Below, in pieces: positions 39,215-57,421 of a stretch of 64,000 nucleotides of DNA. The notes below the pieces were generated by a model that did no database searches, was not told the DNA's origin, and was given only the letters and a program-made list of their open reading frames with translations. The position numbers and the translations under genes were made by a program. The DNA is taken from contig NZ_CP041070.1 in the NCBI RefSeq assembly GCF_006459125.1, forward strand, positions 2,232,001 to 2,296,000. Reading direction: 5' to 3'. The stretch is from Halarcobacter anaerophilus (GTDB lineage Bacteria > Campylobacterota > Campylobacteria > Campylobacterales > Arcobacteraceae). Each line of letters begins with the position of its first letter. Position 1 is the stretch's first letter.

Positions 39215-39246
39215 TTGACAAACGTTATGTATTATAATATACTACG
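39215..39246 (+). promoter_or_regulatory. Promoter overlapped by ModE-like operator 1
   Basis: -35 TTGACA (39215-39220) and -10 TATACT (39238-39243), 17 bp apart. A 24-bp imperfect inverted repeat at 39223-39246 (half-sites CGTTATGTA and TATACTACG, 6 bp apart) covers the spacer and -10. It matches the E. coli-type ModE pattern CGTTATATA-N6-TATATAACG at 15 of 18 half-site positions. This placement suits repression when molybdate is plentiful. Confidence 0.7.
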
Positions 39247-39306
39247 TTGTTCATTTACTTAACCTACTTGCTTTTTTTCTACAAAGTTAAGTAAAGGAAC
39301 ACTTTC

Positions 39307-39906
39307 ATGAATACTAAAAATTCATACATCAATTTAAAAAACGAACCCCTCCCGGATATAAAACAATTTAGCCAATGTGACATATCTCAAAAATTTAATC
39401 CAAACGGAATTAGAGAATTAATGGTTGACTTTGTTTTCCCGCCTGTTGCTTTTCCGCCTGATGAAATATATGAAAAATTTGGAGAAGAAAATATTATAAA
39501 GATGGTTTTTCACCACCATGGTTTATTAAAGAAAAGTTCCATTAAAAATCTCTTTACGCAAGATGAAGAGGAGTTTAAAACAATGACTTACAGAACTGCA
39601 GAGTTTTTTATTGAAGCTTTGGGTGGCGGTTCCAGATACTCTTCAAAACACGGGCATCCCCATTTACGTTCAAGACATTTCCCTTTTACAATAGATGAAC
39701 ATGCAAGAGAAGTCTGGCTTATGTTTTATAAAAAAACATTAAAAGAGATAAACTTTCCAAAAGAGTATTTAAAAGCTTTTTGGGAATGGATAGAGTCTTT
39801 GTCTATTAGAATGATAAATAGAAGAAGTTCTATGGAACCTCCCAAAAGATTCCCTTTTGAAGAGATAAAACATGAATTTTTTAAAGGAGGAGAAAATGAA
39901 AAATAA
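39307..39906 (+). CDS. Group II truncated hemoglobin
   Basis: A 199-aa heme protein. The globin segment (about 50-180) ends in group II features: LGGGSRYSSKHGHPHLRSRH (about 103-122, with the proximal His in RSRH), FPFTIDEHAREVWLMFYKK (the conserved Trp at position G8) and LSIRMINRR. About 35-45 N-terminal residues precede the globin fold. Such globins bind oxygen or NO. It is the first gene after ModE-like operator 1 and overlaps a binding-protein gene, an odd partner for a globin. Family secure, role unknown. Confidence 0.85.
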   Translation: MNTKNSYINLKNEPLPDIKQFSQCDISQKFNPNGIRELMVDFVFPPVAFPPDEIYEKFGEENIIKMVFHHHGLLKKSSIKNLFTQDEEEFKTMTYRTAEFFIEALGGGSRYSSKHGHPHLRSRHFPFTIDEHAREVWLMFYKKTLKEINFPKEYLKAFWEWIESLSIRMINRRSSMEPPKRFPFEEIKHEFFKGGENEK

Positions 39907-40933
39907 ATTCCTTTTCTTTATTCTGTTTTCATTTATATGCCTTACTCAACTCTCATCAAAAACAATAACAGATATGAGTAATAACAAAATTGTAGTTCCG
40001 GACAAAATTGAAAGAGTTTTCGGTTCTGCTCCTCCTACTACGTTTTTAATCTCGTTATACAAACCTGACCTTCTTGTGGGTCTTAACTTTCCCTCTTTTA
40101 ATATGAATAATTTTGGAGATTCATACTATTTAGGTGAAAAATTTATGAACCTTAAATCATTGGGAGGTTGGCAAGGAAGTCAAAAAGGTGCAAGCGTAGA
40201 GATGCTTTTAAAGCTAAAAACTCAAATTATTTTAGGCTGGAACAATGACTTTTTACTAAAAAAAATGAACAAAAGTCTAAATAACATAAATATTCCCACT
40301 GTAATGGTAAACGGTGATGATTTAGAAAAAATGCCTGAAACTTTTGAATTTTTAGGAAATCTTTTTGATATGCCAAAAAGAGGTGAAGAGTTGGCAACTT
40401 ATGCACAAAATTCTTTAGAATATATCTCTAATATGACAAAAAATATTGAGAAAGGCAAAGAAGTTACTTTTTATTATGCAGAGGGACAAAACGGATTAAC
40501 AAGCGATTGTACTTACTCTTTTCACACAACGCAGTTTAGATATATTCATGCAAAAAATATTTACGAGTGTCAGCAAAAAGATATTATGGGAATGGAAAGC
40601 ATAAATTTCGAATCTATTCTAAAAGCAGATCCTGATGTAATAATCGTACAGTCACCGAAATTTTATACAAATATTTTTAAAAATCCGAAATGGAAGATGC
40701 TAAAAGCAGTAAAAGCAAAAAAAGTGTATCTAGTTCCTAGAATACCTTTTAATTGGATAGACAGACCGCCTTCATTTATGAGACTTCTTGGAATACATTG
40801 GTTAAGTTCTGTTATGTATCCCCAATATTACAAAAAAGATATAAATGAAGAGATAAAAACTTTTTATAAAATATTTTTTAAAGTTGATCTTGATGAAGAA
40901 AAATTAAAAGAGATTAAAAAAAGAGCCTTTTAA
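39896..40933 (+). CDS. Periplasmic substrate-binding protein, class III (candidate Mo/W or metallophore binder A)
   Basis: A 345-aa protein with a signal peptide (FLFFILFSFICLTQLSSKT). Typical C-terminal motif: LKAVKAKKVYLVPRIPFNWI followed by DRPPSFMRLLGIHWL (about 286-300), shared with the binding protein at 41691. I start at ATG 39896, right after AAAGGAGGA. Class III binding proteins of this kind include the molybdate/tungstate binder MolA of Haemophilus; the ligand here is inferred from the ModE-like operator only. Confidence 0.85.
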   Translation: MKNKFLFFILFSFICLTQLSSKTITDMSNNKIVVPDKIERVFGSAPPTTFLISLYKPDLLVGLNFPSFNMNNFGDSYYLGEKFMNLKSLGGWQGSQKGASVEMLLKLKTQIILGWNNDFLLKKMNKSLNNINIPTVMVNGDDLEKMPETFEFLGNLFDMPKRGEELATYAQNSLEYISNMTKNIEKGKEVTFYYAEGQNGLTSDCTYSFHTTQFRYIHAKNIYECQQKDIMGMESINFESILKADPDVIIVQSPKFYTNIFKNPKWKMLKAVKAKKVYLVPRIPFNWIDRPPSFMRLLGIHWLSSVMYPQYYKKDINEEIKTFYKIFFKVDLDEEKLKEIKKRAF

Positions 40934-40956
40934 AAGAGGATTTTTCCTCTTTTAAA
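40929..40956. terminator. Bidirectional terminator
   Basis: A perfect 12-bp stem (TTTAAAAGAGGA 40929-40940, TCCTCTTTTAAA 40945-40956) with a TTTT loop lies between the convergent binding-protein and methyltransferase genes and includes both ends. Confidence 0.75.
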
Positions 40957-41689
40957 CTCTCCAAACTAAAACACCGATATTTGAAAAAGTCTCCCTTAGA
41001 ATTTTCCCGTCCTCTTTTATATGAGGCTTTAAAAGCTCCTGAATTTTTTCTTTATCTTCGCTAATTTCTCTTAACTTTAAATGCTGCAGCACATCATTAG
41101 TCATTTCATCCAACGTTCCTTCATTTGACCAATTATGTTCAAAATATTCATCTTTTATTTCATACCCTAAAGAGTTAATATACTCTTTTGTATCAAAAAA
41201 TTTATTTGACATTTTACTTGCATATCCAAGTGTTTCAAGAATATTATCCATTAAAGGGCTGTGTCTTTGTTTTGAAAAAGAAATATAAATACAGATATCT
41301 TTTGATAAATTAATCATGCTGTCAATATCTGCAAAAGAGCTTATTGCAGGTGTCATTGCACTTAAAACAATATCATACTGATTTTGTTCGTTAAACTCTT
41401 TAAAATCCATTTTTTTCAACTCTATATTTTTTATGTCATTCATTTCTATAAAATTTTTAAAATGATTTAACATCCCGTTTGAAAGGTCGACTCCTAAAAT
41501 CGAATTTGCCTCTTTGCACATCAAAGAACTATAAAGCCCTGTTCCACAGCCGATATCTAAAATATTCTTTGATCTAAAATCAATACCGAACTCTTTTACT
41601 TTCGATAAAACTCTATTTGGGGTAACAAGACCGTACTCATCCATAGGCGTAGGATAATTTTTTGATTTAAAATCCCAAAACTTTTCCAT
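40952..41689 (-). CDS. Class I SAM-dependent methyltransferase
   Basis: A 245-aa Rossmann methyltransferase. Motif I NILDIGCGTGLYSSLMC (about 39-55), the acidic residue in LGVDLSNGML and motif IV YDIVLSAMTP (about 104-113). Resembles UbiE/COQ5-type small-molecule methyltransferases. It is cotranscribed with the binding protein at 41691 (1-bp gap) under the divergent promoter region with ModE-like operator 2, so it may act on an imported ligand. Substrate unknown. Confidence 0.85.
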   Translation of the reverse strand: MEKFWDFKSKNYPTPMDEYGLVTPNRVLSKVKEFGIDFRSKNILDIGCGTGLYSSLMCKEANSILGVDLSNGMLNHFKNFIEMNDIKNIELKKMDFKEFNEQNQYDIVLSAMTPAISSFADIDSMINLSKDICIYISFSKQRHSPLMDNILETLGYASKMSNKFFDTKEYINSLGYEIKDEYFEHNWSNEGTLDEMTNDVLQHLKLREISEDKEKIQELLKPHIKEDGKILRETFSNIGVLVWRV

Positions 41690-41690
41690 T

Positions 41691-42650
41691 TTATTCTCCT
41701 TCTAATAAATTTTTTACTTGATTATCACTTAAAGAAACATTTAAAAAAAGTTTGTAAAACTCTTTTACTCTCTTTTCTATATCTATATTATAAATATCTT
41801 TATAAACAATATTTCCCAACCATTGCGCACCTAAAATCTTCATAAATGACGGAGGTCTGTCAAACCAGCTAAAAGGTGATTTCGGAATAAAGTATATATT
41901 TCTGTTTTTTACGGCTTTAAGCTGTAACATTTTTTCATCTTTATAAACATTTTTATAAAAATTCTCTTCTTGAGTAATAATAATATCAGGGTCATAGAGT
42001 ATTAACTGTTCCAGTGAAATTCTTTCTCTTCCAAAACCGGCTTTATTAGGACATTTATGGGGATTTATTGCACCTACATACTCTATTAAATCAGCATGAA
42101 CGGAACTATCACATTCTGTTTGTAGACCATCAGCTCCTTCTGCATAATATACTGATTTTTTCTCTTTAACTCTTTTTTTCAAACTCTTTAACTCATCCAA
42201 ACTCTTTTTTGTATATAAAGATAATTGCTCTGCCCTACTTTTTAAGCCTAAAGTCAAACCTAAATCTTTATATGCTTTGCTATAATCTTCCAAAGAGTTT
42301 ATATTTATACTAAAAGTTTTAAAACCCAAACTATGCAGTTTATCATCTACTTTTTTAAAACTGTTATTAAAATTCCAAGTTACTACCAAATCAGGATTTA
42401 CCTTTATAAGTGTTTCAAAATTCGGTGTATTTCCCTGCCCAAACCAACCGCCTATAAGAGGCAACTTATTCATATCTTTTCTTAAATATTCTAATTCTCT
42501 ATTTACAAAAGTATAATTTATACCTGCTATTAAATCGGGATTTAAAGAATATAAAAAGTAAGTTGCAGGAGGAGAAGCACCGAAAACAGTTACACTCTGC
42601 TTAGCAAACATTACACCTACAATAAAAAAAATAGACAGTATTTTTTTCAC
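41691..42650 (-). CDS. Periplasmic substrate-binding protein, class III (candidate Mo/W or metallophore binder B)
   Basis: A 319-aa protein with a short signal peptide (KKILSIFFIVGVMFAKQS). LKAVKNRNIYFIPKSPFSWF and DRPPSFMKILGAQWL (about 258-291) match binder A at 39896. It diverges from the luciferase-like/permease/ATPase operon, and the shared 119-bp region contains ModE-like operator 2. It is the most likely partner of the permease at 43685, since no other permease lies in this locus. Confidence 0.85.
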   Translation of the reverse strand: MKKILSIFFIVGVMFAKQSVTVFGASPPATYFLYSLNPDLIAGINYTFVNRELEYLRKDMNKLPLIGGWFGQGNTPNFETLIKVNPDLVVTWNFNNSFKKVDDKLHSLGFKTFSININSLEDYSKAYKDLGLTLGLKSRAEQLSLYTKKSLDELKSLKKRVKEKKSVYYAEGADGLQTECDSSVHADLIEYVGAINPHKCPNKAGFGRERISLEQLILYDPDIIITQEENFYKNVYKDEKMLQLKAVKNRNIYFIPKSPFSWFDRPPSFMKILGAQWLGNIVYKDIYNIDIEKRVKEFYKLFLNVSLSDNQVKNLLEGE

Positions 42651-42709
42651 AAAAACTCCTTCTTTTTAATTTTTGTATAAAAATTATACAATTTAACAAG
42701 TCTTATTTG

Positions 42710-42746
42710 TTGACTTTTTCCTCGTTATATAATACAATACATAACG
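42710..42746 (+). promoter_or_regulatory. Promoter overlapped by ModE-like operator 2
   Basis: -35 TTGACT (42710-42715) and -10 TACAAT (42733-42738), 17 bp apart. A 24-bp inverted repeat at 42723-42746 has half-sites CGTTATATA and TACATAACG, 6 bp apart; 17 of 18 positions match CGTTATATA-N6-TATATAACG. It covers the -10 of the rightward promoter and could also control the leftward genes at 40952-42650. Confidence 0.8.
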
Positions 42747-42769
42747 AAAAATTGCAAGTAGGTTGGAAA

Positions 42770-43681
42770 ATGAATATAGGTTTAATGCTTTTATATGAAA
42801 ATTGGAACGAAGACTTTTCAAAAGCTTTTCAAAATCAACATGAAATAATTATGCTAAGCGAACAACTTGGATTTAATGAAGTTTGGATAACAGAACATCA
42901 CTTCAATAAATTTAGTCTAAGTTCTTCAATTATGACTCTCATGGCATATATTATTGCAACAACAAAAAAAATAAGAGTAGGCACCGCTTCAATACTTACT
43001 CCTATTTATAATCCCATCATTGTAGCTGAGGCTATAGCCACATTAAATATCCTCAGTAATAATAGATTTAATTTTGGCGTTGCAAAAGGTGGTCCCTTCA
43101 AAAAACAAAATCGAATGTTTGACTTTGAAAACTCGAGAGAGACTATGCTTGAGAATCTTGATCAAATATTTTCATATTTAAAGGATGAAAGCAGTGTTTA
43201 TCCAAAACCTATTGGTAATATTCCCACGTTTATAGCTTCAAAAAATGAGCAGTCCATAAAGTTTGCAGCCCAAAGAGATATTGGGTTAATGGCTGCCCAT
43301 CTTTGGTCTACTGAAATTATAAAAGACATTATTGAGCAATATAAGAAAGCCAATTATCTTAACCTTCCTCCCCAAATTATGTGTTCAAGAGGCTTTTATA
43401 TGGCAAGTAGCAATGATGAAGCTATAAATGAGGCACTTCCTGCTCTAACACGATTTAGAGAACAAATGGAAAAACAAGGAATCAGCAGTCCTATTTTTTA
43501 TGATGAAGATTATTGGATTGAAAATGGAATAATAGGAGATAAAGAGACCTGTTTAAAAAAAGTAAAAGAGTTAAAAGACTTAGGTATTACAAACTTAGCA
43601 TTAAAACCGATTTCAAATGAGGTTGAAAAAAATAAAAATTCTTTAGAACTGTTCGCTAAAGAAATTTTGGTTAATTTATAG
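42770..43681 (+). CDS. Luciferase-like flavin monooxygenase
   Basis: A 303-aa bacterial luciferase-family (F420/FMN) TIM-barrel protein. Seen: LGFNEVWITEHHFNKF (about 35-50), KIRVGTASILTPIYNPIIVAEAIATL and a C-terminal GDKETCLKKVKELKDLGIT. I start at ATG 42770 after AGTAGG; the upstream 21 codons of the longer frame lie inside the ModE-like operator. It is the first gene of the permease/ATPase operon. Family members oxidise organic ligands; cleaving an imported chelator is an inference. Confidence 0.85.
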   Translation: MNIGLMLLYENWNEDFSKAFQNQHEIIMLSEQLGFNEVWITEHHFNKFSLSSSIMTLMAYIIATTKKIRVGTASILTPIYNPIIVAEAIATLNILSNNRFNFGVAKGGPFKKQNRMFDFENSRETMLENLDQIFSYLKDESSVYPKPIGNIPTFIASKNEQSIKFAAQRDIGLMAAHLWSTEIIKDIIEQYKKANYLNLPPQIMCSRGFYMASSNDEAINEALPALTRFREQMEKQGISSPIFYDEDYWIENGIIGDKETCLKKVKELKDLGITNLALKPISNEVEKNKNSLELFAKEILVNL

Positions 43682-43684
43682 AAT

Positions 43685-44680
43685 ATGAAACCGATTTTAG
43701 TGCTTTTTATACTGCTTGTTATTATTGCTGTTTTTTCTTTGTCTTTAGGACAATATGAACTTTCAGTTTCAGAAATAATAAATTTTTTTTTATACAAAAT
43801 TGGTATAGGAACTATTGATAATGTGCAGCTTATGCAAAATATAATTATTGAGATAAGGTTTCCACGAATCGTATCTTCAATATTAATAGGTGCATCTTTG
43901 GCAATTTCAGGAGTTGCTTTTCAATCAATGTTTAAAAATCCTTTAGTCTCTCCCGGGATATTGGGCGTTTTATCAGGTGCCTCTTTCGGCGCCGCACTTG
44001 GAATGATATTTTTCAAAGAGTTTTTACTTATACAAGCTTCATCGTTTGTATTTGGTATTGCAGCAGTTTTTATTGCTCTTTTTATATCAATGTTTAATAA
44101 ACAAAATCAATTAATACTTCTTATTTTAGGCGGTGTCGTAAGTTCTGCATTTTTCAGTTCTATGTTATCTATTACAAAATATATGGCAGATCCATATGAT
44201 GAACTTCCTGCAATCGTTTATTGGATGATGGGAAGTTTGGCACTTATTGACAAACAGACTATTTATGTAGTCTCTATACCTATTTTATTAGGAATATTTT
44301 TAATGATTTTTCTTTCAAAATATTTGAATATTTTAAGCTTAGGAGATGAAGAGGCAAAAAGTTTGGGAATAAATGTAAAACTTATGAGATTTGTAATTAT
44401 TCTTATTGCAACTTTTATCAGTGCTTTTACCGTTGTACTTGCGGGAATGATAGGTTGGGTAGGTTTAGTAATTCCTCATATCGCAAGATTATTATTTGGC
44501 TCAAACAATATTATAATTGTTCCTATATCAGCCCTGCTTGGAGGAATATATCTCTTAATAATAGACAATGTTTCAAGAACAATGTTTAGTGTTGAGATTC
44601 CTATAGGTATTTTAACCTCTTTAATAGGAATCCCGTTTTTTGCTTATGCTTTAAAAAACGTCAAAAAAGGATGGGGATAA
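43685..44680 (+). CDS. FecCD-family ABC transporter permease (MolB-like)
   Basis: A 331-aa inner-membrane permease. EIRFPRIVSSILIGASLAIS (about 56-75), FKNPLVSPGILGVLSGASFG (about 82-101) and GMIGWVGLVIPHIARLLFG (about 258-276) are FecCD signatures. It starts 4 bp after the luciferase-like gene and overlaps the ATPase start by 1 base. It is the only permease between 39 and 57 kb, while three binding proteins and four receptors are present, so they may share it. Confidence 0.95.
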   Translation: MKPILVLFILLVIIAVFSLSLGQYELSVSEIINFFLYKIGIGTIDNVQLMQNIIIEIRFPRIVSSILIGASLAISGVAFQSMFKNPLVSPGILGVLSGASFGAALGMIFFKEFLLIQASSFVFGIAAVFIALFISMFNKQNQLILLILGGVVSSAFFSSMLSITKYMADPYDELPAIVYWMMGSLALIDKQTIYVVSIPILLGIFLMIFLSKYLNILSLGDEEAKSLGINVKLMRFVIILIATFISAFTVVLAGMIGWVGLVIPHIARLLFGSNNIIIVPISALLGGIYLLIIDNVSRTMFSVEIPIGILTSLIGIPFFAYALKNVKKGWG

Positions 44681-45438
44681 TGTTTAAAGTAGAAGATTTA
44701 AAATTCTCATATGGGAAAAAAGAGATTTTAAAAGGAATCAGTTTTGAAATAAATTCATCTGATATAGTCTCAATTTTAGGTCCAAACGGTTGTGGAAAAA
44801 CGACTTTGCTAAAAATTATGTTAGGTTTTTTAAAACCAAGCCAGGGAAAAGTATATTTCGGCGGAAAAGATATAAGCAAAATAAAACCCAAACATTTTTT
44901 TCAAAGAGTTGCATATATACCCCAAATTCATGACGGAGCTTTTGGCTATTTGGTAAAAGATGTCGTCTTGATGGGAAGAATGCCATATAAGTCAATTTTT
45001 TCAAATTTTAATAAAGAGGATAAAAAAATAACTCTCAATGCTTTAGAAGTAATGGGAATAGAACATTTAAAAGACGAAATTTATACTACATTAAGCGGTG
45101 GACAAAGACAATTAGTTTTAATAGCAAGGGCAATTGCCCAACAAGCCGACATTTTTATAATGGATGAGCCTGTCAACGGATTAGACTTTGGAAACCAATA
45201 CAAACTTCTTAATAAAATCAAAGAACTATCAAAAAAAGATTTAACTTTTATAAAAACAAGCCATTATCCGGATCATGTCTTTTTTGTATCAAATGAAGCT
45301 ATTTTTTTAGACAAAGGCAAAATTCTGGAAAAAGGCAATCCCGAAACAATCATAAGAGAAGAAAATATAAAAAAAGTTTATAAAATAGAATCAAAAATTA
45401 TCAATATTAATAATAGAAATATCTGTTTAGCTGTGTAA
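44680..45438 (+). CDS. ABC transporter ATP-binding protein (MolC/FepC-like)
   Basis: ATPase of the 43685 permease. Walker A GPNGCGKTT, Q-loop YIPQIHDG, signature LSGGQRQ, Walker B IFIMDEP with VNGLD, and the switch His in TSHYPDHVFFV. I use ATG 44680 (MFKVEDLKF), which overlaps the permease stop as TAATG, giving 252 aa; a start at 44671 would add three residues. The receptor at 45492 follows after 53 bp containing ModE-like operator 3. Confidence 0.93.
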   Translation: MFKVEDLKFSYGKKEILKGISFEINSSDIVSILGPNGCGKTTLLKIMLGFLKPSQGKVYFGGKDISKIKPKHFFQRVAYIPQIHDGAFGYLVKDVVLMGRMPYKSIFSNFNKEDKKITLNALEVMGIEHLKDEIYTTLSGGQRQLVLIARAIAQQADIFIMDEPVNGLDFGNQYKLLNKIKELSKKDLTFIKTSHYPDHVFFVSNEAIFLDKGKILEKGNPETIIREENIKKVYKIESKIININNRNICLAV

Positions 45439-45454
45439 ATATTTTTTTAATTAT

Positions 45455-45478
45455 CGTTATATACTTATTTATATAAAG
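45455..45478 (+). promoter_or_regulatory. ModE-like operator 3
   Basis: A 24-bp inverted repeat: CGTTATATA, 6-bp spacer, TATATAAAG; 17 of 18 positions match CGTTATATA-N6-TATATAACG, and it is preceded by AT as in the E. coli modA site as I recall it. It lies just before the ribosome binding site (GAAGGAG) of the 45492 receptor, between the ATPase and receptor genes, so the receptor operon may have its own Mo-controlled promoter. Confidence 0.75.
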
Positions 45479-45491
45479 AGAAGGAGAATAA

Positions 45492-47702
45492 ATGCAACAT
45501 AAATCACAAATTTTATTTTTAAGTCTTTGTAGTTTGGCAATTGCTCAAGAAGATATAAAAATAAAACCTATTGATATTAATGAGAATAAAATCAGTCAAT
45601 TTTATGATTTTACTGAATCTTCACAAAAAAGAGTCATAAATAAAGATTTACTTGAAGTTTTGCAAGGAACTAGTTCAACAAACTATTTTAAAAGTTTGGA
45701 ATTAATACCTTCTATAAATTTGGAAACTCATGATCCTTATTCTTTAACTGTTGATCAAAATATGTTCAGAGTCAGGGGACAAGTTGCAGATACTTTTAGT
45801 AAATTGAGTGCAACTATTGAAGATATACCTTTTGGTGTTAATGTTGGGAATGGGGCAACAGGATATTTAATAGATAAAGAAAATCTTTCACAAGCAGAGT
45901 TTATTACAGGGATAACCCCAGCAAACAAGGGACTTGGTTTAGGAGATACAGCTGGTTCTTTAAATTTAAAACTTCTAAAGCCTAAAGATAAAATGGGTGC
46001 AACTTTATCTTTGGGAGCTGGAACTGATGCTTTCAAAAAAGCTCATTTTCGTTTTGACAGTGGAAAAATTAAAGACAAAGCTAAATTTTTTATTTCAACT
46101 TCAGCTATGGAAAATGATAAATACAAAGGTGAAGGTGATATAAAAAGAAAAAACGTTGAAGCTATGACAACAGTAGATTTAACAGATAATGTTCAATGGG
46201 AACTTTTTGGAACTTATAATACCTTTGACAGGTATGAATATAGACCTTTAACATATGAAGAAACAAAATCTTTAAGTTCAAATTATAATCTTGATTATAA
46301 TACTTCAATAACAGGAAATAGTAAAGAAGATGCTAATTACTATGATTTTTATAAACAAGATTTTCACGAGTATTTTATTTATACAGCTTTAAATTCAAAA
46401 ATTGGTGAGACTGCTATAAAAATAAAACCTTATACTTTTGGCAGTGCAGGTACAAGATATCAAGGAGATACGTCAAAAGGTACTGTCAAAAAAATGAGTA
46501 TCGAACAAGAAGCATATGGAATCAATCTTGAATTAAATCACCCTCTTGCTGGTGGTGATTTATATGGTGGTTGGTGGTATCAGAGAATGGAATCAACCCC
46601 TCCTCCTAAAATGATGAAAGTTTATAAAATTCAACCTGATGGTAGTTTAAAATATGCTTCAACAGGTATGTTAACTAATGTTGAAGATAGAGTTTCAAAT
46701 TCTCCTTTTATTGGTTATGAAAAAAGATTTAACAATACTTATATAAATGCAGGATTAAGATATATAATGTTTGATTTTCCTGCCGTTACAGGATATGACA
46801 CTTCAGGACTTCCAAATCTTTCTTATGATGATGCAAAATCTGCTTCAAGTGGAGTGAAAGATGGAATGAAAGTAGATGCGAGTAGTTATGACAAACTCCT
46901 TCCAAGTATAGCAATAGAACAAATTTTAAATGATAATTGGAAAATTGGTGGAGGTTATGCAAAAAATTATGCAAATCCATGGCAAGGTCCCTTGTGGTCA
47001 GTTTATAATTCAAATACTGCAAAATTTCAAGCAGCAGGTATTAGTTTACAGGATTTATGGGATGAACTAAAACTTGAAACTTCAGACAATTTTGAAATTT
47101 TTGCCCAATACTCTAATGATAAATTTTCTATAAAAAATACATTTTTCTACGGTAAATACAAAAATAAACAAGTTACTGTATATGATTCAAATCTTGATTT
47201 AAGTTATTATAAAAGTGACGCAGAAGCTACTTCAATGGGTGCAGAACTTGAAGCAAATTATCAATTAAGTACAAATTCTACAATATTTGCTTCTGTATAT
47301 TACAACAAATTTGAATTTGAAGATGATATCTTATTAACAACAAATAGCTACTTAAAAACCCAAGGAAATCAAATTCCTGATGTAGCTAAAATAGGTGCAA
47401 AAGTAGGAGTTAATTTTAGATATAACAACTTTACAATAACTCCAATCGCAAGATATGTAGGGAAAAGATATGGTGATGCTGAAAATAATGAAGAGGTTGA
47501 CCCTTATACTGTTTTTGATTTAAATGCAAAATATGTTTTGAAAAAAGATCAAATAGAGCTTTCACTGGCACTTCAAAATATTTTTGACAAGGAATACGTA
47601 GGAGTAGTTAAAAACAGTCTTGATGATACAAGAACAGGTTCAACTTCATATTATCAAGGTGCTCCATTCTCAGCAGTTCTAAGTATGGTATTTAGGTTCT
47701 AA
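45492..47702 (+). CDS. TonB-dependent receptor, Mo-island receptor 1
   Basis: A 736-aa receptor with signal peptide (LFLSLCSLAIAQED), TonB box IKIKPIDINEN (about 23-33), plug motif FRVRGQVADTFSKLSATIED and NKGLGLGDTAGSLNLKLL, and barrel ending in SVLSMVFRF-like sequence. Directly follows ModE-like operator 3. Ligand unknown; if the operator is real, a molybdenum or tungsten complex is plausible. CCA is used more often for Pro than in most genes here. Possible operon with 47704-57421. Confidence 0.88.
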   Translation: MQHKSQILFLSLCSLAIAQEDIKIKPIDINENKISQFYDFTESSQKRVINKDLLEVLQGTSSTNYFKSLELIPSINLETHDPYSLTVDQNMFRVRGQVADTFSKLSATIEDIPFGVNVGNGATGYLIDKENLSQAEFITGITPANKGLGLGDTAGSLNLKLLKPKDKMGATLSLGAGTDAFKKAHFRFDSGKIKDKAKFFISTSAMENDKYKGEGDIKRKNVEAMTTVDLTDNVQWELFGTYNTFDRYEYRPLTYEETKSLSSNYNLDYNTSITGNSKEDANYYDFYKQDFHEYFIYTALNSKIGETAIKIKPYTFGSAGTRYQGDTSKGTVKKMSIEQEAYGINLELNHPLAGGDLYGGWWYQRMESTPPPKMMKVYKIQPDGSLKYASTGMLTNVEDRVSNSPFIGYEKRFNNTYINAGLRYIMFDFPAVTGYDTSGLPNLSYDDAKSASSGVKDGMKVDASSYDKLLPSIAIEQILNDNWKIGGGYAKNYANPWQGPLWSVYNSNTAKFQAAGISLQDLWDELKLETSDNFEIFAQYSNDKFSIKNTFFYGKYKNKQVTVYDSNLDLSYYKSDAEATSMGAELEANYQLSTNSTIFASVYYNKFEFEDDILLTTNSYLKTQGNQIPDVAKIGAKVGVNFRYNNFTITPIARYVGKRYGDAENNEEVDPYTVFDLNAKYVLKKDQIELSLALQNIFDKEYVGVVKNSLDDTRTGSTSYYQGAPFSAVLSMVFRF

Positions 47703-47703
47703 G

Positions 47704-48723
47704 ATGAAAAAATTTACTCTATTTTTTATTGGAATTCTTTTTTCTTTTAATTTATTTGCCACTTCTATTAAAGATATGGCAAATAGAGACATTGAAGTAC
47801 CTGAAAAAATTGAAGGTATTGTAAGTGTAGGTGGGACTCCTGCAATAAATGCTTTTTTATTTGCCTTTAAAAAAGCCGACCTAATAAAAAATGGTGTCGA
47901 AAATGAAAATTTAAAAAAAATGCCATTTTGGAGACACCAACAATGGTTTATGCCAAATATTTTTGATTTGCCGCAAGTTTCATCAAATCCACCTTCATGG
48001 ACACCAAATTTTGAAAAGCTTGCCCTTACAAAATTTGATATTGCTTTTGTAAATAATTCATTAGCTGCAAATATGCTTGAAAAAAGAGCTTATAAAACAG
48101 CAGTAATAAACTGGCAAGGTGAAAATAATATTCAAAAAAGTATGAATTTTTTAGGTGAATTTTTCAATATGCAAAACCATGCAAAAGAGTATGAAAATTA
48201 TTATACAAAGATTATAAAGCTGATTGAAGAAAGAACAAAAAAGATAAAAACAAAAAAAACAGCTTTATATATAAGACTTGATAATTTAATGATGCCAATG
48301 GTAACAACAGCAAATACAATCTTTAAAAAAGCAGCTGTTATCTCTTCTTCCGAACATATAAATAAAGAACATGTTTCAATAGATATGGAAAAATTATATC
48401 TTATGAATCCAGATTTTCTTTTTGTTTGGGGAGAAAAAAATGTAAAACTTGCATTAACTAATCCAAAATTCAAAAATCTAAAAGCTGTAAAAAACAAAAA
48501 TGTATTCTCTGTACCAATGGGAATACATTTTTGGACACATTATACTCCAGAACAAATTTTATGTATTTTGTGGGTGGCAAAACATGCTTATCCAGAAAAT
48601 TTCAAAGATATAAATATATTTGAAGAAACAAAATCATTTTATAAACAATTTATGGGAAAAGAACTCTCAAAAAATCAAATAAATGAAATTTTAAATTTAA
48701 ACACACACAAGGAAACAAAATGA
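47704..48723 (+). CDS. Periplasmic substrate-binding protein, class III (binder C)
   Basis: A 339-aa protein with signal peptide (LFFIGILFSFNLFATSI). SIKDMANRDIEVPEKIEGIVSVGG is the usual family start, and LKAVKNKNVFSVPMG with WTHYTPEQILCILWVAKHAYP the C-terminal region. It lacks the DRPPSFM motif of binders A and B, so it probably has another ligand or partner. Proline codons are CCA in 10 of 14 cases, against 1 of 16 in binder A, which hints at a different origin. The gene lies between two receptor genes, 1 bp after the first. Confidence 0.85.
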   Translation: MKKFTLFFIGILFSFNLFATSIKDMANRDIEVPEKIEGIVSVGGTPAINAFLFAFKKADLIKNGVENENLKKMPFWRHQQWFMPNIFDLPQVSSNPPSWTPNFEKLALTKFDIAFVNNSLAANMLEKRAYKTAVINWQGENNIQKSMNFLGEFFNMQNHAKEYENYYTKIIKLIEERTKKIKTKKTALYIRLDNLMMPMVTTANTIFKKAAVISSSEHINKEHVSIDMEKLYLMNPDFLFVWGEKNVKLALTNPKFKNLKAVKNKNVFSVPMGIHFWTHYTPEQILCILWVAKHAYPENFKDINIFEETKSFYKQFMGKELSKNQINEILNLNTHKETK

Positions 48724-50789: not shown

Positions 50790-50801
50790 GAGGAGATTAA
50801 A

Positions 50802-52727
50802 ATGAAGAAGAAAATTTTATGTTCAGTTTGTATGGCAACACTTTTATATGCAAATGAAAGTGAACAGTTTAATCTAGGGGAAATAGATATCAGTGAAACA
50901 AAAAATGTAAGTAACAAAGAAGAGATTCTAAGTGAAGATATGCAGCTGCATAACTCAACCGATATATCTGAAGCTTTAAGCAATACAGCGGGAGTTTTCT
51001 TATCAAACAGCGGTGCAAGAGCTGAAAAAACTATTTCAATAAGAGGGTTTAATTCTACAAGAGTAGCTGTGTTTATGGATGGTATCCCGATTTATGTTCC
51101 TTATGACGGAAATTTTGATTATGGAAGATTTACAACGGCTGATTTATCAAAAATTGATATTTCAAAAGGGTTTTCATCTGTTAGATACGGAGCAAATACT
51201 ATGGCGGGAGTTGTAAATTTGATTTCAAAAAAACCGACAAAAGAGTTTGAAGGGAATATCTCTCTTGGTTCAAACTTTGATGACGATTTTGGAGTAAGTC
51301 AATATACAACATCCGTAAATTTGGGAACAAAACAAGAAAAATATTATCTGCAATTTGCAGGAAGCATTAGAGACAGAGACCATTTTGATATCTCAAGTGA
51401 TTTTAATAAAACTGAAAACCAACCAAAAGATGAGAGAATTCATTCCTCTTCAAACGATAAAAAATTTAGTATAAAAGCGGGTTGGACTCCCGATGATAAC
51501 AGCGAATATGCAATTATGTATTCAAAAATAGATGCAGAAAAAGAGCAGCCTAAGATTACCGACGGCTCTTTAGGAAGAGAAAGAGAATGGGATTGGCCAC
51601 AATGGGACAAAGAAGGAGTTTACCTTTTTACGGATAATAACTTTGGACAAAACTATTTAAAAACAAGATGGTTTTACGATAAATTTGAAAACTACTTAAT
51701 TCAATATAGAAGAGATTCCGACTGGGATACTTTTCAATGGGGAAGCAGATATGATGATTATAGTTACGGAGGTTCGGTAGAGTTTGGAATGCCTTTGAAA
51801 AATCATGAAATAGTATCCTCAGTTAGTTATAAATATGATTCCCATAAAGGTTATGATGAGGATGATGTAAAAAATGAAGATTATGCAGATGAAACGATTT
51901 CAATTGCTTTGGAAGATACTTATTCTATAACAGATTCTTTGGCTCTTGTTGCAGGTATTAGTTACGACCGATTAGAAGATGATAAAATCTGGGATGAAGA
52001 CGGGAAATACTCTATTAAAAGTATAGATAGTTTTAATCCGCAAATCGGTCTGTTTTATGATATAGATACCAAACAAAAAATAAGTTTCACGATAGCTAGA
52101 AAAACCCACCTTCCTACCATGAAAGAGAGGTATTCGGAAAAAATGGGAGACGGTCTTGCAAATCCAGATTTAAAAGAGGAAAAAGCTACTCATTATGAAC
52201 TTTCATATACAAACTTTTTAACAGATAATTTTAATTTCAAAACAAATCTTTTTTTAATAGATTATAAAGATGCTATCCAAAGTGTTAGTGTAGGAAGTTT
52301 AGATCAAAATCAAAATATAGGTGATTTTAGACATGAAGGAATTGAATTAGAGTTAAACGCTTACTTTGATAGATTTAGCTCGGGACTAAATTATACCTAT
52401 ATTGATATTGAAGATAGAGACGATAGTGACTATGAAAGAACAGGCATCCCTGAACATGCGATATTTGGTTTTGCAAAATATAATTTTACAAAAGATTTTT
52501 CTTTTTACGGAAACGTTAAACATGAAAGAGGAACCAAATTAGAGTATGACGATAACAAATATAAAAAGAATAATTACACAACTGTAGACACAAAGCTGAT
52601 CTACACCTACAATGATTTGACTTTTGAAGCAGGAGTTAAAAATTTACTTGATGAAGATTACTACTATGATTTAGGTTATCCAGAAGCAGGAAGAGAATAT
52701 TTCGTAAATATGAGATATACCTTTTAG
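50802..52727 (+). CDS. TonB-dependent receptor, Mo-island receptor 3
   Basis: A 641-aa receptor. Signal peptide to about YANESE, TonB box NLGEIDISETK, plug with TISIRGFNSTRVAVFMDGIPI and RYGANTMAGVVNLISKK, and a barrel ending in FVNMRYTF. Smaller than its neighbours and with the most typical plug motifs of the four. AGGAG precedes the ATG. It is followed 10 bp later by the small molybdopterin-fold protein. Confidence 0.9.
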   Translation: MKKKILCSVCMATLLYANESEQFNLGEIDISETKNVSNKEEILSEDMQLHNSTDISEALSNTAGVFLSNSGARAEKTISIRGFNSTRVAVFMDGIPIYVPYDGNFDYGRFTTADLSKIDISKGFSSVRYGANTMAGVVNLISKKPTKEFEGNISLGSNFDDDFGVSQYTTSVNLGTKQEKYYLQFAGSIRDRDHFDISSDFNKTENQPKDERIHSSSNDKKFSIKAGWTPDDNSEYAIMYSKIDAEKEQPKITDGSLGREREWDWPQWDKEGVYLFTDNNFGQNYLKTRWFYDKFENYLIQYRRDSDWDTFQWGSRYDDYSYGGSVEFGMPLKNHEIVSSVSYKYDSHKGYDEDDVKNEDYADETISIALEDTYSITDSLALVAGISYDRLEDDKIWDEDGKYSIKSIDSFNPQIGLFYDIDTKQKISFTIARKTHLPTMKERYSEKMGDGLANPDLKEEKATHYELSYTNFLTDNFNFKTNLFLIDYKDAIQSVSVGSLDQNQNIGDFRHEGIELELNAYFDRFSSGLNYTYIDIEDRDDSDYERTGIPEHAIFGFAKYNFTKDFSFYGNVKHERGTKLEYDDNKYKKNNYTTVDTKLIYTYNDLTFEAGVKNLLDEDYYYDLGYPEAGREYFVNMRYTF

Positions 52728-52737
52728 GAGTTAAGAT

Positions 52738-53196
52738 ATGAAGCTTTTATTTGCACTCTTAATTACTTGTATACAAATCTTTGCTCTTAATTTAACAGTT
52801 CAAGGGGACGTTAAGAACCCCCTTAATCTGTCAGAAAAAGAGTTTAAAAACTTACCTCAGACTACCCTTGAAAACGTAAATGTAGTCTGTGCTTCGGGAG
52901 AAGAGAAACAAAAGCCTAAAAATTTAAAAGGTGTTTTACTTATGCAGCTTGTTCAAAACGCAAAAATTGATATAAAAAGTAAAAAAAAGCTTAATCAAAT
53001 AGTAATTTTGGCAACGGCAACCGATAACTATGCCGTTGCTTTTAGCTATAACGAACTATTTAACACGGATATCGGAAATTATGTTTTAGTAGTTTATGAA
53101 AATAACAGCTTCTCTTTATATTCAAAAAAAGACTTTTTAACAGGACCTAGACATGTTTATGATCTTAATAATATAAAAATCAAACTAATCAAATAA
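52738..53196 (+). CDS. Small exported protein with oxidoreductase molybdopterin-binding (SUOX-like) fold
   Basis: A 152-aa protein with signal peptide (KLLFALLITCIQIFALN). The rest resembles the sulfite-oxidase molybdopterin-binding domain: LTVQGDVKNPLNLSEKEFKNLPQ, a conserved-position cysteine in VNVVCASGEE, LKGVLLMQLVQ and YAVAFSYNELFN. It is far shorter than SUOX or YedY enzymes, so it is probably a binding or accessory protein, not a full oxidoreductase. It sits between two receptors in a locus with ModE-like operators. Fold fairly likely, function unknown. Confidence 0.65.
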   Translation: MKLLFALLITCIQIFALNLTVQGDVKNPLNLSEKEFKNLPQTTLENVNVVCASGEEKQKPKNLKGVLLMQLVQNAKIDIKSKKKLNQIVILATATDNYAVAFSYNELFNTDIGNYVLVVYENNSFSLYSKKDFLTGPRHVYDLNNIKIKLIK

Positions 53197-53205
53197 GGAG
53201 AAGAG

Positions 53206-55194
53206 ATGAAAATCACACACACAAGTTTAATCGCATCATTGTTGTTTTCATCGGCACTTTTTGCTGATGAAAACTATAAATTAAAAGAGATAAGTATAGT
53301 AGATAAAACAAATAAAACTATGCAGGATATAGCTTATGAACAGATGAATGAACCTACAGTTCCTACAGCCAGTTCGACATTATCTACAGAAACTTTTACC
53401 CAAAAAGATATTGAAGAGATAAAACCTAAAAACGTATATGAGATTTTAAATAATGCTCAAAGTGTAAATATCTCTCAAATGGGAAGAAAACACCCTTATA
53501 CAATCTCTTTTAGAGGAAGTTCAAGCGGTGTAGGAAGTAGTGCTTTTGGAATTATTTTAGACGGAGCGCTTCTTAGCGATAATAGTGCAATGAGAATATT
53601 AGAAGTTTTACCGCCTGAAACAATACAATCTTTGCAAATAGTAAGAGACTCTACAGCATTAAGTTTAGCTCCTATTCAATCATTTGCAAATCCAAACGGT
53701 TCTACTCTGCAAGGTTTTATTGTAATAAAAACAAAACAACCTACACAAAACGGAGGAGGAATGAAATTATCATATGAAACCTTCAACACAAAAAAAGGAA
53801 ATGCTTATTACGGAGGAAAAAGCGGAGATCTCTACTATATGGCAGCCGTAAACGGTATTGATACGGAAGGGAAAGACGGTTTTAATATGGCAAATGAAGG
53901 AGGAAGTGCTTTTTTAAAAACAGGTTTGGCAAAAGATGATTTTAATATTGAATTAAATGTTTTTTACTCAAGATATTTTCAAGAGATTCAAACAAACAAC
54001 TCACCTCTTAGCGGAGCCTATGATGTTTATTGGAAATATGAACCTTTTGAAAATAGATTAGTAAGTTTATCTATGGCTAAAAACTGGTCTCAAAACCAAA
54101 TAACAAATATAACTCTTTCACATGCAAAAGCCAGTTGGGATCATGACCAAGATACCACAGGAGATACGGACAGTTATTTTGTCGGTACCCAAAAAAATGA
54201 TTCTATAGATATAAAACATACAATGAAACTATCAGATACAATCTTAAAAGTCGGTGGTCAGGCAATCTGGTATGATGCTCCAAACGGAGAATTATTTTAT
54301 GAAGGAAGAGAGAGAAAAGAGCAAATTTACGGAGCATTTGTTCAAGCTGAGCATTTTATAAGTGATAAATTAGTTATTGATGAAGCCATTAGAATAGATA
54401 AAAAACATACCGATAAATTATATGAAATTTATGCTCCAAGTATGGAAGTAAATAAAAAAATAAAAATGGGTCTTTTACAACTAACTACCATTGACGATCA
54501 ATGGTCAAAAGCCGCTGTTAATATGGCTTTGGGAGCTTTATATAAATTAGATGACAATAATTCATTGAGTGCAAAATTCGCATACTCTACATATTCACCT
54601 GTAGACGGATCTACAAATAGTGAAGGAGGCTCTTTAGAAGATGAAGAGCAATTTAAGTATGAAATAGGTTTTGAAAATGTATTAGGAAATCTTACTTCAA
54701 AAATGAATATCTTCTATTATGATATAAGAAATCTAAAATTTGCAGAATACGGTGTTTCTTTAGATAATCCCGTAACTTTTTATCAAGAAGATCAAAAAAG
54801 ATGGGGAACAGAGATATCGTTTGACGGAAGAATTGATAATTTTAGCTATCTTTTAAATTATGCTTTTGTAAAAACTAATTATAAAGATGAAGAGATACCA
54901 AACCATTTAGTCTCTGCAAAATTGGGATATACTTATGAAAATATCACTTCAAATGTTTTAGTAAAATACGTAAGTAATTATGAATCTAATTTCTTGGTAA
55001 AAGACGGTTCATACCATGAAGTAGGAGATTTTACTACTTTAGATGCTTCTATTGATTATCATCATAAACTCTACAGTCATGATGCAACAGTTTCTGTATA
55101 CGGAAAAAATATTACAGATCAAGAGTATTCTACAAAAGTCGGTTGGGAAAATGTAGGTTCAATTTTCGGCGTTAGTTATGCAATAAATTTTTAG
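53206..55194 (+). CDS. TonB-dependent receptor, Mo-island receptor 4
   Basis: A 662-aa receptor with signal peptide (LIASLLFSSALFADEN), TonB box YKLKEISIVDK, plug motif PYTISFRGSSSGVGSSAFGIILDGALL and ending FGVSYAINF. The plug uses VRDSTALSLAPIQSF where most receptors have RGPxSxLYG, an atypical form. It follows the SUOX-like gene after 9 bp with AAGGAGAAG upstream. Confidence 0.87.
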   Translation: MKITHTSLIASLLFSSALFADENYKLKEISIVDKTNKTMQDIAYEQMNEPTVPTASSTLSTETFTQKDIEEIKPKNVYEILNNAQSVNISQMGRKHPYTISFRGSSSGVGSSAFGIILDGALLSDNSAMRILEVLPPETIQSLQIVRDSTALSLAPIQSFANPNGSTLQGFIVIKTKQPTQNGGGMKLSYETFNTKKGNAYYGGKSGDLYYMAAVNGIDTEGKDGFNMANEGGSAFLKTGLAKDDFNIELNVFYSRYFQEIQTNNSPLSGAYDVYWKYEPFENRLVSLSMAKNWSQNQITNITLSHAKASWDHDQDTTGDTDSYFVGTQKNDSIDIKHTMKLSDTILKVGGQAIWYDAPNGELFYEGRERKEQIYGAFVQAEHFISDKLVIDEAIRIDKKHTDKLYEIYAPSMEVNKKIKMGLLQLTTIDDQWSKAAVNMALGALYKLDDNNSLSAKFAYSTYSPVDGSTNSEGGSLEDEEQFKYEIGFENVLGNLTSKMNIFYYDIRNLKFAEYGVSLDNPVTFYQEDQKRWGTEISFDGRIDNFSYLLNYAFVKTNYKDEEIPNHLVSAKLGYTYENITSNVLVKYVSNYESNFLVKDGSYHEVGDFTTLDASIDYHHKLYSHDATVSVYGKNITDQEYSTKVGWENVGSIFGVSYAINF

Positions 55195-55239
55195 AAAGCA
55201 TAAAAGTGATACTCTTTTAATCAAAAAAGGTACTTTAAA

Positions 55240-55872
55240 ATGAATATGAAAAAAGAAAAAAGAAAAACAAGTCCAAATGGATTTGACAAAATAGTCAGGG
55301 AAATTTTTGCACCTATTTATCCGGCAATTGCTAAACAAATTCTTGAAAAAACAAATTTAGTAGAAGGAAAATGTCTTGATGCAGGATGCGGAACAGGGGC
55401 TTTGGGACGAGCTTTGGCAAAATATAGTAAAATGGAACTTATCTTTTTCGATAAGTCCCAAGATATGTTGGAATTAACAAAAAAATACGTAAAAGAAGAA
55501 AAGTTAGAGAAAAGAAGCTCTTTTCTTCTTGGTGATATTCATAAAATCCCTTATGAAGACGAAAGCCTGGATTTGATAATAAGCCGTGGTTCAAATCCTT
55601 TTTGGGAGGATTGGGAACAAGCTTATAAAGAGATATACAGAGTTTTAAAAAAAGGCGGAAAAACTTATATAGGCTGCGGATTCGGCAGTAAAAAACTTTA
55701 TGATGAAGTAATGGGAAAAATGAAAGAAGAAAATCCAAATTGGAAGCATCCTGAATTTGAAGATTTGCAAACAAAAAAAGAGAGCCTGCCTAAAATAATG
55801 CAGCAATTAAAACCTAGCAAATTTGAAATAATCGACAATGAAAGCGGCTTTTGGCTTTTTATGGAAAAATAA
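55240..55872 (+). CDS. Class I SAM-dependent methyltransferase
   Basis: A 210-aa UbiE-like methyltransferase: CLDAGCGTGALGRALAK (motif I, about 45-61), acidic residue in IFFDKSQDML, LDLIISRGSNPFWEDWEQAYKEIYRVLKKGG (about 107-137). Second methyltransferase of the island. It lies between receptor 4 and exbB in the same direction. The substrate is unknown; modification of an imported chelator, or release of metal from it, is only inference. Confidence 0.85.
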   Translation: MNMKKEKRKTSPNGFDKIVREIFAPIYPAIAKQILEKTNLVEGKCLDAGCGTGALGRALAKYSKMELIFFDKSQDMLELTKKYVKEEKLEKRSSFLLGDIHKIPYEDESLDLIISRGSNPFWEDWEQAYKEIYRVLKKGGKTYIGCGFGSKKLYDEVMGKMKEENPNWKHPEFEDLQTKKESLPKIMQQLKPSKFEIIDNESGFWLFMEK

Positions 55873-55882
55873 AGGAAAAGAT

Positions 55883-56311
55883 GTGATTGATACAATTAAA
55901 CTCTATATGGAGTACAGTATAATGGGAGTTTTAGCCTTTATGAGCTTTTTAACTCTTTGGTTTACTTTAGAAAGATATTTTTTTCTTTCTAAAGTAAAAA
56001 TAGAGGAGTTTAAAAAAAAGGGAGAGTTAGAAAATACCCTGACGAATAATCTTACAACCATATCTACTATAGCTTCAAATGCTCCATATATAGGTTTATT
56101 CGGTACTGTATGCGGTATTATGATTACCTTTTACAAGATTTCCGAAAGTTCAAACTTTGATACAAGCAGCGTAATGTTAGGTCTTGCTTTGGCGTTAAAA
56201 GCGACTGCTTTTGGTATTTTAGTAGCTATTTTTGCAACTATCGTTTATAACGGTCTTGCTAGAAAAGTTGAAGTTTTAATGACTAAATGGGAAGATTTAA
56301 ATGAGAATTAA
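55883..56311 (+). CDS. exbB: ExbB-like proton-channel protein
   Basis: A 142-aa inner-membrane protein of the MotA/TolQ/ExbB family. Helix 1 (about 7-29), then the conserved SNAPYIGLFGTVCGIMITFYKIS (about 63-85) and ALKATAFGILVAIFATIVYNGLARK (about 104-128). The start is GTG 55883 (MIDTIKLYM) with AAAGGAAAAG upstream; the longer frame from 55838 overlaps the methyltransferase. With ExbD and TonB it powers the receptors. Confidence 0.92.
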   Translation: MIDTIKLYMEYSIMGVLAFMSFLTLWFTLERYFFLSKVKIEEFKKKGELENTLTNNLTTISTIASNAPYIGLFGTVCGIMITFYKISESSNFDTSSVMLGLALALKATAFGILVAIFATIVYNGLARKVEVLMTKWEDLNEN

Positions 56312-56681
56312 AAAATTTGACTCAATGAATGTTATCCCATTTATTGATATTATGCTTGTATTGCTAGCTATTGTGTTAACTTTTTCAACCTTTATAGCAC
56401 AAGGCAGAATTGAGCTTACCCTGCCAAAATCAAATACTACCGAGCAAGTAGATATAAAATTAAAAGAGATAGCAATAGATGCAAAAGGACAAATTCTTTA
56501 TGAAGATGAGGTTATTGAACTAGATAAACTAAAAGAGGTTTTGGAACAATTGCCTAAAAATACGAATATCTCTTTAAGAGCTGATGAGAATACTCCTTTT
56601 AAACTCTTTGTTCAAGTAATTGATATATTCAAAGAATTAAAGCTAGATAAAATCTCAATAATTACAGAGTTAAATCGATGA
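56301..56681 (+). CDS. exbD: ExbD-like protein
   Basis: A 126-aa protein with a single membrane helix (about 13-35). The proton-carrying Asp is D16 in NVIPFIDIMLVLL, and the periplasmic part ends RADENTPFKLFVQVIDIFKEL. It overlaps exbB by 11 bp and tonB by 4 bp, so the three are made together. Confidence 0.94.
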   Translation: MRIKKFDSMNVIPFIDIMLVLLAIVLTFSTFIAQGRIELTLPKSNTTEQVDIKLKEIAIDAKGQILYEDEVIELDKLKEVLEQLPKNTNISLRADENTPFKLFVQVIDIFKELKLDKISIITELNR

Positions 56682-57421
56682 AAAATTCTTTGACAGCTTT
56701 TATAATCTCTTTATTGGTACATATTTCAGTTTTTGCAGCAATTTTATATACTCCAATACAAATAAAAGAGAAAGAGACCGTTATTTTGAGTATGAATATG
56801 ATAAGTGAAATTGTTCAGACGAAAAAACAGGTTGAACAAAAACAAGAAGTAACGACAAAAAAGCAAAAGAAGCAAGTAGAAGAGAAAAAAATTGAAAAAA
56901 TTCAAAAAAAAGTTGAGCCCGTAAAAAAAGAGCCTAAGCCTGTAAAAAAAATAAAAAAGCCTAAACTAAAGAAAAAAATAGTAAAAAAAGAACCAAAAAA
57001 AGAGATAAAAAAACCTGTACAAAAAGTAAGAAAAGAGAAACCTGTAGAAGAGGTGAAAAAAGAACCTGTTGAAAAAATCACCTCACAAAAAAAACAAGAA
57101 GAGAGTATAAAAAGAGTTAAAAGCGGAGAGAACTATCAAGAAAAATATATTAAAACAAATCTTGAAAGTATAATTGCAGCAATTAAAAAACACAAAAATT
57201 ACCCTTATTTGGCAAAAAAACGCGGATTTGAAGGGAAAGTAGTAATTCAGTGTACGATTATGGCAAACGGTAAGATAAAAGATATAAAAATTATAGATGA
57301 ATGTAAATATGATATCTTAAATAAAAACAGTATAAAAATTTTAAAACTTGCATCAAAAGAGTTTGAAGCGCCTAAAAAAGATGTCCAACTAACAATCCCT
57401 TTTAATTATTACCTCAACTAA
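56678..57421 (+). CDS. tonB: TonB energy-transducing protein
   Basis: A 247-aa protein: one N-terminal membrane helix (about 7-25) with the conserved His after SLLVH, a long Lys/Glu/Pro-rich periplasmic linker (about 48-150, repeated KK-EP-VKK patterns) and the C-terminal domain with YPYLAKKRGFEGKVVIQCTI (about 172-191). It ends the receptor operon and gives this locus its own TonB system. Confidence 0.94.
   Translation: MKNSLTAFIISLLVHISVFAAILYTPIQIKEKETVILSMNMISEIVQTKKQVEQKQEVTTKKQKKQVEEKKIEKIQKKVEPVKKEPKPVKKIKKPKLKKKIVKKEPKKEIKKPVQKVRKEKPVEEVKKEPVEKITSQKKQEESIKRVKSGENYQEKYIKTNLESIIAAIKKHKNYPYLAKKRGFEGKVVIQCTIMANGKIKDIKIIDECKYDILNKNSIKILKLASKEFEAPKKDVQLTIPFNYYLN

Follow-up and report, generated by a model that had tools for sequence, protein, structure and literature searches.

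Introduction

The usual view is that molybdate enters the periplasm via porins (PMC8264917, Salmonella). The MolBCA system of Haemophilus influenzae (HI1470-1472; 2nq2 and 3psa/3psh), a low-affinity importer of molybdate and tungstate (PMC4031551), consists of a FecCD permease, an ATPase, and a class III binding protein, and is an inner-membrane transporter only, described there without a dedicated outer-membrane receptor. In Escherichia coli, ModE controls ModABC, not a TonB system, and its operators have the form ATCGNTATATA-N6-TATATANCGAT (PMC545781, PMC2700814). A TonB receptor for molybdate has been predicted beside modE, from gene context only, in the molybdenum (Mo) cluster of Azotobacter chroococcum (Achr_39320-39230; PMC4465626), and the nif cluster of Zymomonas mobilis contains modE together with TonB receptors (ZMO1815/ZMO1822) described as iron-associated (PMC8594446). 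In this study, we analyzed a 64-kb stretch of DNA (C1:2232001-2296000; referred to as the window) from a 3.02-Mb single-contig genome, which carries nifHDK and the host of which is placed by its relatives in Campylobacterota, near Arcobacter. An 18-kb island in this window (39223-57421; positions without a prefix are those of the window) appears likely to be a Mo-ModE-repressed, TonB-driven importer of Mo (or tungsten, W), probably for complexes made by other organisms.

Like MolBCA, the island encodes a FecCD permease, an ATPase, and class III binding proteins, but it also contains four outer-membrane receptors. It has the operator architecture of E. coli ModE-modABC (CGTTATATA-N6-TATATAACG type) in common and, putatively, repression by Mo-ModE. 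Fur-controlled ferric siderophore systems (FepA/FecA-type, CeuE, and YiuA) are built from the same families, with the same route from TonB-dependent receptor through periplasmic binding protein to FecCD permease and ATPase, and with ExbBD-TonB; in the island, ModE sites are found instead of Fur boxes, and the permease lies outside the FhuB, HmuU, and BtuC branches. This kind of system is foreshadowed by the A. chroococcum prediction, although that cluster contains modE and one receptor instead of four, and the passage on it mentions no private ExbBD-TonB, globin, monooxygenase, methyltransferases, or operator analysis, whereas these genes and operators are present here. In the literature searched, this was the one earlier prediction of a TonB receptor for molybdate, and no island was found that combines several receptors, operators, accessory enzymes, and a Ton motor of its own with a spread over multiple phyla, an absence that is not proof.

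Results and Discussion

ModE-like operators

An earlier reading of the window, made from its letters alone (the sequence-only reading), had pointed to three ModE-like sites, and to ModE control with a role in Mo or W uptake. When CGTTATRTA-N6-TAYATAACG was searched with up to 3 mismatches, three matches were found in the window (39223, 42723, and 45455), against 0.06 expected from dinucleotide shuffling, and each was located just 5' of one of the three transcription units of the island, whose start was moved to 39223 to include the first. Operator 1 (CGTTATGTATTATAATATACTACG; 39223..39246; no strand is assigned to any of the three) has 2 mismatches and overlaps the -10 of TTGACA-N17-TATACT. 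Operator 2 (CGTTATATAATACAATACATAACG; 42723..42746) has 0 mismatches and is in a region of divergent promoters, where it covers the -10 of TTGACT-N17-TACAAT, while operator 3 (CGTTATATACTTATTTATATAAAG; 45455..45478), with 1 mismatch, lies just 5' of the ten-gene operon. Operator 2 is wholly upstream of the monooxygenase gene because the latter starts at ATG 42770, from which its homologues align, and not at the mechanical TTG 42707. E. coli-type operators (CGNTATATA-N6-TATATNNCG) are present at promoters as three conserved sites, and since two of them cover the -10 of recognizable promoters, repression would occur by occlusion.

Only six sites with up to 2 mismatches were detected in the whole genome: three in the island, two between modE and nifK, and one before another receptor/binding-protein pair. 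The product of modE (C1:77598-78380) contains a helix-turn-helix (HTH_1) and two TOBE stretches, as in ModE proteins. In this locus (L008:5053-14903; C1:73052-82902), nifH, nifD, and nifK are directly upstream of modE, modA, a TOBE gene, modB, and modC, followed by a second pair of genes for a binding protein and permease and by a Mop gene. The palindrome, found twice in the putative promoter region of modE, is an independent anchor for regarding the island sites as candidate ModE operators. Four further sites with 3 mismatches (314012, 1017598, 1860050, and 2571564) were treated as background: two were intragenic, and the others were by genes for an EamA-type transporter, a hydrolase, an alcohol dehydrogenase, or a glycosyltransferase.

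The sixth site is 18 bp before its receptor/binding-protein pair, in a region (C1:427002-427122; L021:7003-7123) where a 727-aa receptor and a class III binding protein are accompanied by a Fur-like box (1 mismatch) and the ModE-like box (2 mismatches). This arrangement suggests joint control by iron (Fe) and Mo, and one receptor may serve both metals.

Conservation of the operators in relatives

When 84,980 species genomes were scanned once, using only the permease as the query, 80 loci were obtained (genes in high-GC loci were mapped with a simple longest-open-reading-frame caller, and the details of these maps are unreliable). The boxes were kept in Arcobacteraceae (loci L028, L029, and L030) where orthologous units exist, while much of the surrounding intergenic DNA had changed: L028 retained all three sites, and L029 and L030 retained two or three, with operator 1 being kept in L028 and L030. 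Eighteen Campylobacterota loci (346 kb), chosen by permease homology only, contained 24 sites with up to 2 mismatches, 22 of which were intergenic, compared with a mean of 0.025 and a maximum of 1 for forty palindromes permuted without changing their composition. Among 59 other loci, 15 contained 23 sites with up to 3 mismatches (mean of 0.4 and maximum of 1 for twenty permuted motifs), and the site-bearing loci outside Campylobacterota included those of Syntrophus, Nitrobacter, Acidithiobacillus, Thiobacillus, Chromatiales, Oceanobacter, and Variovorax. Motif variants with a gap of 4, 5, or 8 gave no matches in the relatives, and a gap of 7 gave 6.

The consensus is AT-rich, and with up to 3 mismatches the reversed pattern matched 6 times genome-wide against 10 for the true motif, as might be expected if the three palindromes had arisen by chance in an AT-rich genome. 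Given the 0.06 matches expected in the window, the conservation of the sites at the same places, and their enrichment over permuted motifs in 77 loci, chance can be practically dismissed, and this explanation was rejected on the basis of shuffles, footprints, and permuted motifs.

In L073, compared here with the Z. mobilis nif cluster, a permease relative and a modE-like gene are separated by 5-6 kb, and no ModE operator within 4 mismatches was detected in the part examined.

Linkage to modE, mod, nif, and vnf genes

In Sulfurovaceae, Sulfuricurvum, and Sulfurospirillum, the island set (binding proteins, receptors, permease, ATPase, Ton motor, globin, monooxygenase, and methyltransferase) is contiguous with modE and, in many cases, also with mop and modABC. 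We compared 219 Campylobacterales genomes, 31 of which possess a permease with at least 50% identity. A modE gene was located within 10 kb of the permease in 18 of these 31, against 0 of 20 lower-identity FecCD matches (Fisher p 1e-5; the pairs were taken by hand from tables, and this and the following p-values ignore shared ancestry). The permease-bearing genomes more often had nifH over the cut-off (18/31 vs 32/188 other genomes; p 4e-6) and modE (30/31 vs 104/188; p 2e-6). In one genome (G112), the permease, a Mop-like gene, and nifH fall within 9.7 kb, and in the Variovorax locus L087 the permease is approximately 5 kb from nifHDK. The sequence-only reading had proposed comparing the gene content around ModE boxes in other Campylobacterota and in nitrogen-fixing species; the permease family was found to be linked to modE, modABC, nif, and vnf genes. 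Together with the palindromes in the modE promoter, the conserved sites, and their enrichment in loci of many phyla, this linkage supports its proposal of ModE control and a Mo/W role.

In an alphaproteobacterial locus (L064:939-15367), a receptor, binding protein, FecCD permease (46% identity to that of the island), and ATPase adjoin nifEN and vnfDG(K); the matches to VNFD and vnfG exceeded the cut-off. The transporter family may, therefore, serve a vanadium (V) nitrogenase in this case.

ModE-type regulators generally sense both molybdate and tungstate, so that control by ModE would also suit an importer of W, rather than Mo, for W enzymes. MolA binds tungstate as well as molybdate (PMC4031551). 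The association with nifH across Campylobacterales and the adjacency of modE to nifHDK in the present genome favor Mo as the main need, and we regard a W-specific role as improbable.

Four Spirochaetaceae loci (L088, L091, L094, and L106) showed a simpler, MolBCA-like arrangement, in which a gene with a ModE-like DNA-binding domain is directly 5' of genes for a FecCD permease and ATPase, a 224-aa protein, and a binding protein; no TonB receptor was seen there.

Kinship of the transport components

The permease (43685..44680, plus strand), a FecCD-type inner-membrane protein by Pfam, has MolB HI1471 as its best solved relative (2nq2; 245.7 bits, 8.5e-72), ahead of FhuB (196), HmuU (159), and BtuC (136), and is, therefore, closer to MolB than to the hydroxamate, haem, and B12 permeases. 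In the tree, it groups with full support (100/99) in a clade of 26 rows, and many of these rows are linked to ModE, nif, or vnf. A wider clade (98/96) adds HI1471, the ModE-linked Spirochaete permeases, and the permease at 9859 of the window, while HmuU, BhuU, BtuC, and FhuB are outside. This kinship supports a MolB-type transporter, as judged from the alignment and tree, and not one-to-one orthology with HI1471.

The model of binding protein 1 (39872..40933, plus strand; Peripla_BP_2) had a predicted local distance difference test score of 90, and its nearest folds were 4pag (Z 40.5), 4hn9 (28.8), 4ovk (28.7), MolA (3psa; 26.9), and YiuA (approximately 25). MolA, the fourth best, showed an identity of only about 22%, and the motifs YYAEGxDGL..C..SFH and NWIDRPPSFMR, strongly conserved in the family of binding protein 1, distinguish the island proteins from it. 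The fold search does not discriminate between MolA and YiuA. The closest structure, 4pag, is a solved protein from Sulfurospirillum deleyianum, the entry title of which gives no ligand; it is a member of the same ModE-linked family, with 41% identity to binding protein 1.

Receptor 1 (45492..47702, plus strand; 736 aa) has the canonical plug-barrel fold in its predicted structure, and a fold search returned only the general TonB-receptor family (12-17% identity), with nothing on its ligand. With plug-barrel receptors and ExbB, ExbD, and TonB, the island has the components of a TonB-dependent uptake system.

Comparison with iron uptake

Fur-like 7-1-7 boxes with up to 2 mismatches were absent from the island promoters; the three in the window (11682, 12583, and 17986) were all at the other TonB cluster, which served as the positive control. 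Control by Fur alone, which the sequence-only reading had set against its own proposal, is, therefore, not indicated. That cluster is part of a second, iron-type TonB region (4412-20082) comprising an AraC regulator, three receptors, two binding protein-FecCD-ATPase sets, and a MarR regulator; it contains the Fur-like boxes and no ModE box, an internal contrast to the island, and its permease at 9859 is 42% identical to that of the island.

The absence of siderophore-synthesis genes, noted earlier for the island, extends to the genome, in which no nonribosomal peptide synthetase Condensation domain or IucA/IucC was found, and isochorismate synthase was below the cut-off. The organism is thus unlikely to make its own chelator of the usual catechol or hydroxamate kinds; siderophore-synthesis genes are not strictly needed for a piracy system.

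Proposed function

We propose the following mechanism. When molybdate is plentiful, Mo-loaded ModE would bind the three palindromes and block the three units, which would be expressed when Mo is short. The four TonB receptors, powered by the ExbB-ExbD-TonB of the island, would then pull Mo or W species through the outer membrane; the class III binding proteins would capture them in the periplasm and pass them to the MolB-like FecCD permease, which, with its ATPase, would carry them into the cytoplasm. One guess for the cytoplasmic monooxygenase, globin, and methyltransferases is that they open or modify a chelator.

Several observations weigh against this proposal. HI1471 is outside the 26-row clade of the island permease and joins only the wider clade; since the latter also holds the permease of the other cluster in the window, kinship with MolB does not fix the substrate. 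The fold of binding protein 1 is nearly as close to YiuA (Z 25), a ferric-catecholate protein, as to MolA (26.9), and receptors 2 and 3 are weakly similar to haem receptors (160 and 148 bits with the TonB-hemin model against a cut-off of 316.85). MolA binds naked molybdate at low affinity (PMC4031551), and the binding-protein class, therefore, needs no chelate.

The similarities to YiuA with its iron-catecholate and to haem receptors would suit an island for iron-siderophore or haem uptake, in which the ModE sites add no more than a Mo-linked adjustment, one conceivable reason being the joint need of nitrogenase and molybdoenzymes for Fe and Mo. All of the transporter families are of types used in siderophore and haem uptake, and the receptor with a ModE box at 427 kb also has a Fur-like box. 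Nevertheless, the lack of Fur-like boxes in the island, the position of the permease nearest to MolB, and the physical linkage to modE and modABC in many genera make this quite improbable. Haem uptake as such was rejected because the receptor scores are far below the TonB-hemin cut-off.

The properties of MolA, the best characterized relative of this binding-protein type, and the lack of chelator-synthesis genes genome-wide raise another alternative, namely, that the receptors bind the bare oxyanion and import molybdate at extreme dilution, with the accessory enzymes serving another Mo-linked purpose. We consider this rather unlikely. Since ModABC for naked molybdate is already encoded beside modE, the cargo is most likely a Mo/W complex, and a complex is also favored by the four different receptors and three binding proteins, which suggest several ligand shapes, and by the recurrent monooxygenase, globin, and methyltransferase genes, which are hard to explain for a bare oxyanion. 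Because recognized siderophore-synthesis genes are missing, the chelate would be taken from other organisms. Catechol-type chelators, as suggested by the sequence-only reading, are a conjectural form of this cargo.

A more specific version of uptake as a Mo complex is tentatively put forward as molybdophore piracy: the Mo-chelator of other microbes would enter the cytoplasm whole via the MolB-like permease, where the monooxygenase, supplied with O2 by the truncated haemoglobin and assisted by the methyltransferases, would destroy the chelator and release molybdate for ModE and nitrogenase. In relatives, the metal may perhaps also be V; L064, where a family member adjoins vnfDGK, would then represent a vanadium version of the pathway. 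We regard this version as possible but doubtful.

The island, which is shared by relatives in several phyla, suggests that some bacteria actively pull scarce, probably chelated, Mo through the outer membrane instead of awaiting its diffusion. As far as the literature searched shows, the return of catechol-bound Mo and V (as in Azotobacter) into cells has not been worked out, and the conserved, ModE-marked island of diazotrophic Campylobacterota, together with the related loci of Nitrobacter, Syntrophales, Acidithiobacillus, Variovorax (beside nifHDK), and the vnf-bearing alphaproteobacterium, provides named genes for testing active outer-membrane uptake. In nif regions, Mo or V may be the cargo of many receptors and "iron" permeases whose annotation is iron uptake, and a role is suggested for 4pag, a solved but functionless binding protein. 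If the proposal is true, the extent to which Mo limits nitrogen fixation would be determined in part by competition for the chelated metal.

Gene organization of the island

The 17 genes (39307 to 57421; plus strand unless stated) were identified from open reading frame calls and Pfam, and three transcription units were judged from spacing and orientation. The four TonB receptors, three class III binding proteins, FecCD permease, ATPase, and private ExbB-ExbD-TonB of the sequence-only reading were all recovered; the truncated haemoglobin, monooxygenase, two methyltransferases, and PF00174-like secreted protein had not been listed there. No NCBIfam equivalog was above the cut-off for the ten island proteins searched.

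Unit 1 consists of the genes for a truncated haemoglobin (39307..39906; 199 aa; Bac_globin), the best solved relative of which is 4nk1, and binding protein 1, which overlap by 35 bp. In unit 2, a luciferase-like flavin monooxygenase (42770..43681) is followed by the permease and its ATP-binding cassette ATPase (44671..45438), the genes of which overlap by 10 bp. Binding protein 2 (41691..42650, minus strand; Peripla_BP_2; 319 aa), from the family of binding protein 1, and the S-adenosylmethionine-dependent methyltransferase 1 (40952..41689, minus strand; 245 aa) are encoded divergently from unit 2.

Unit 3 contains ten genes with intergenic gaps of -35 to +45 bp. Receptor 1 is followed by binding protein 3 (47704..48723; Peripla_BP_2; 339 aa), which represents a distinct subgroup, receptor 2 (48720..50789; 689 aa), and receptor 3 (50802..52727; 641 aa), the receptor type most widely kept in the Campylobacterota islands. 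A small secreted PF00174-like protein (52738..53196), receptor 4 (53206..55194; 662 aa), and S-adenosylmethionine-dependent methyltransferase 2 (55240..55872; 210 aa), which recurs in Campylobacterota and Syntrophales islands, precede ExbB (55838..56311), ExbD (56301..56681), and TonB (56678..57421).

The monooxygenase, globin, and methyltransferases recur with the transporter in Campylobacterota loci, the globin being beside the permease family in 16 of 21. The PF00174-like protein (SUOX fold; 152 aa) matched its family with E 8.4e-5, below the cut-off. Homologues beside the permease family were found at L028:16843-17298, L087:8221-8637 (beside nifHDK), and L090:8272-8682, a recurrence spanning Campylobacterota and betaproteobacterial loci, and this protein is a possible periplasmic Mo-handling protein.

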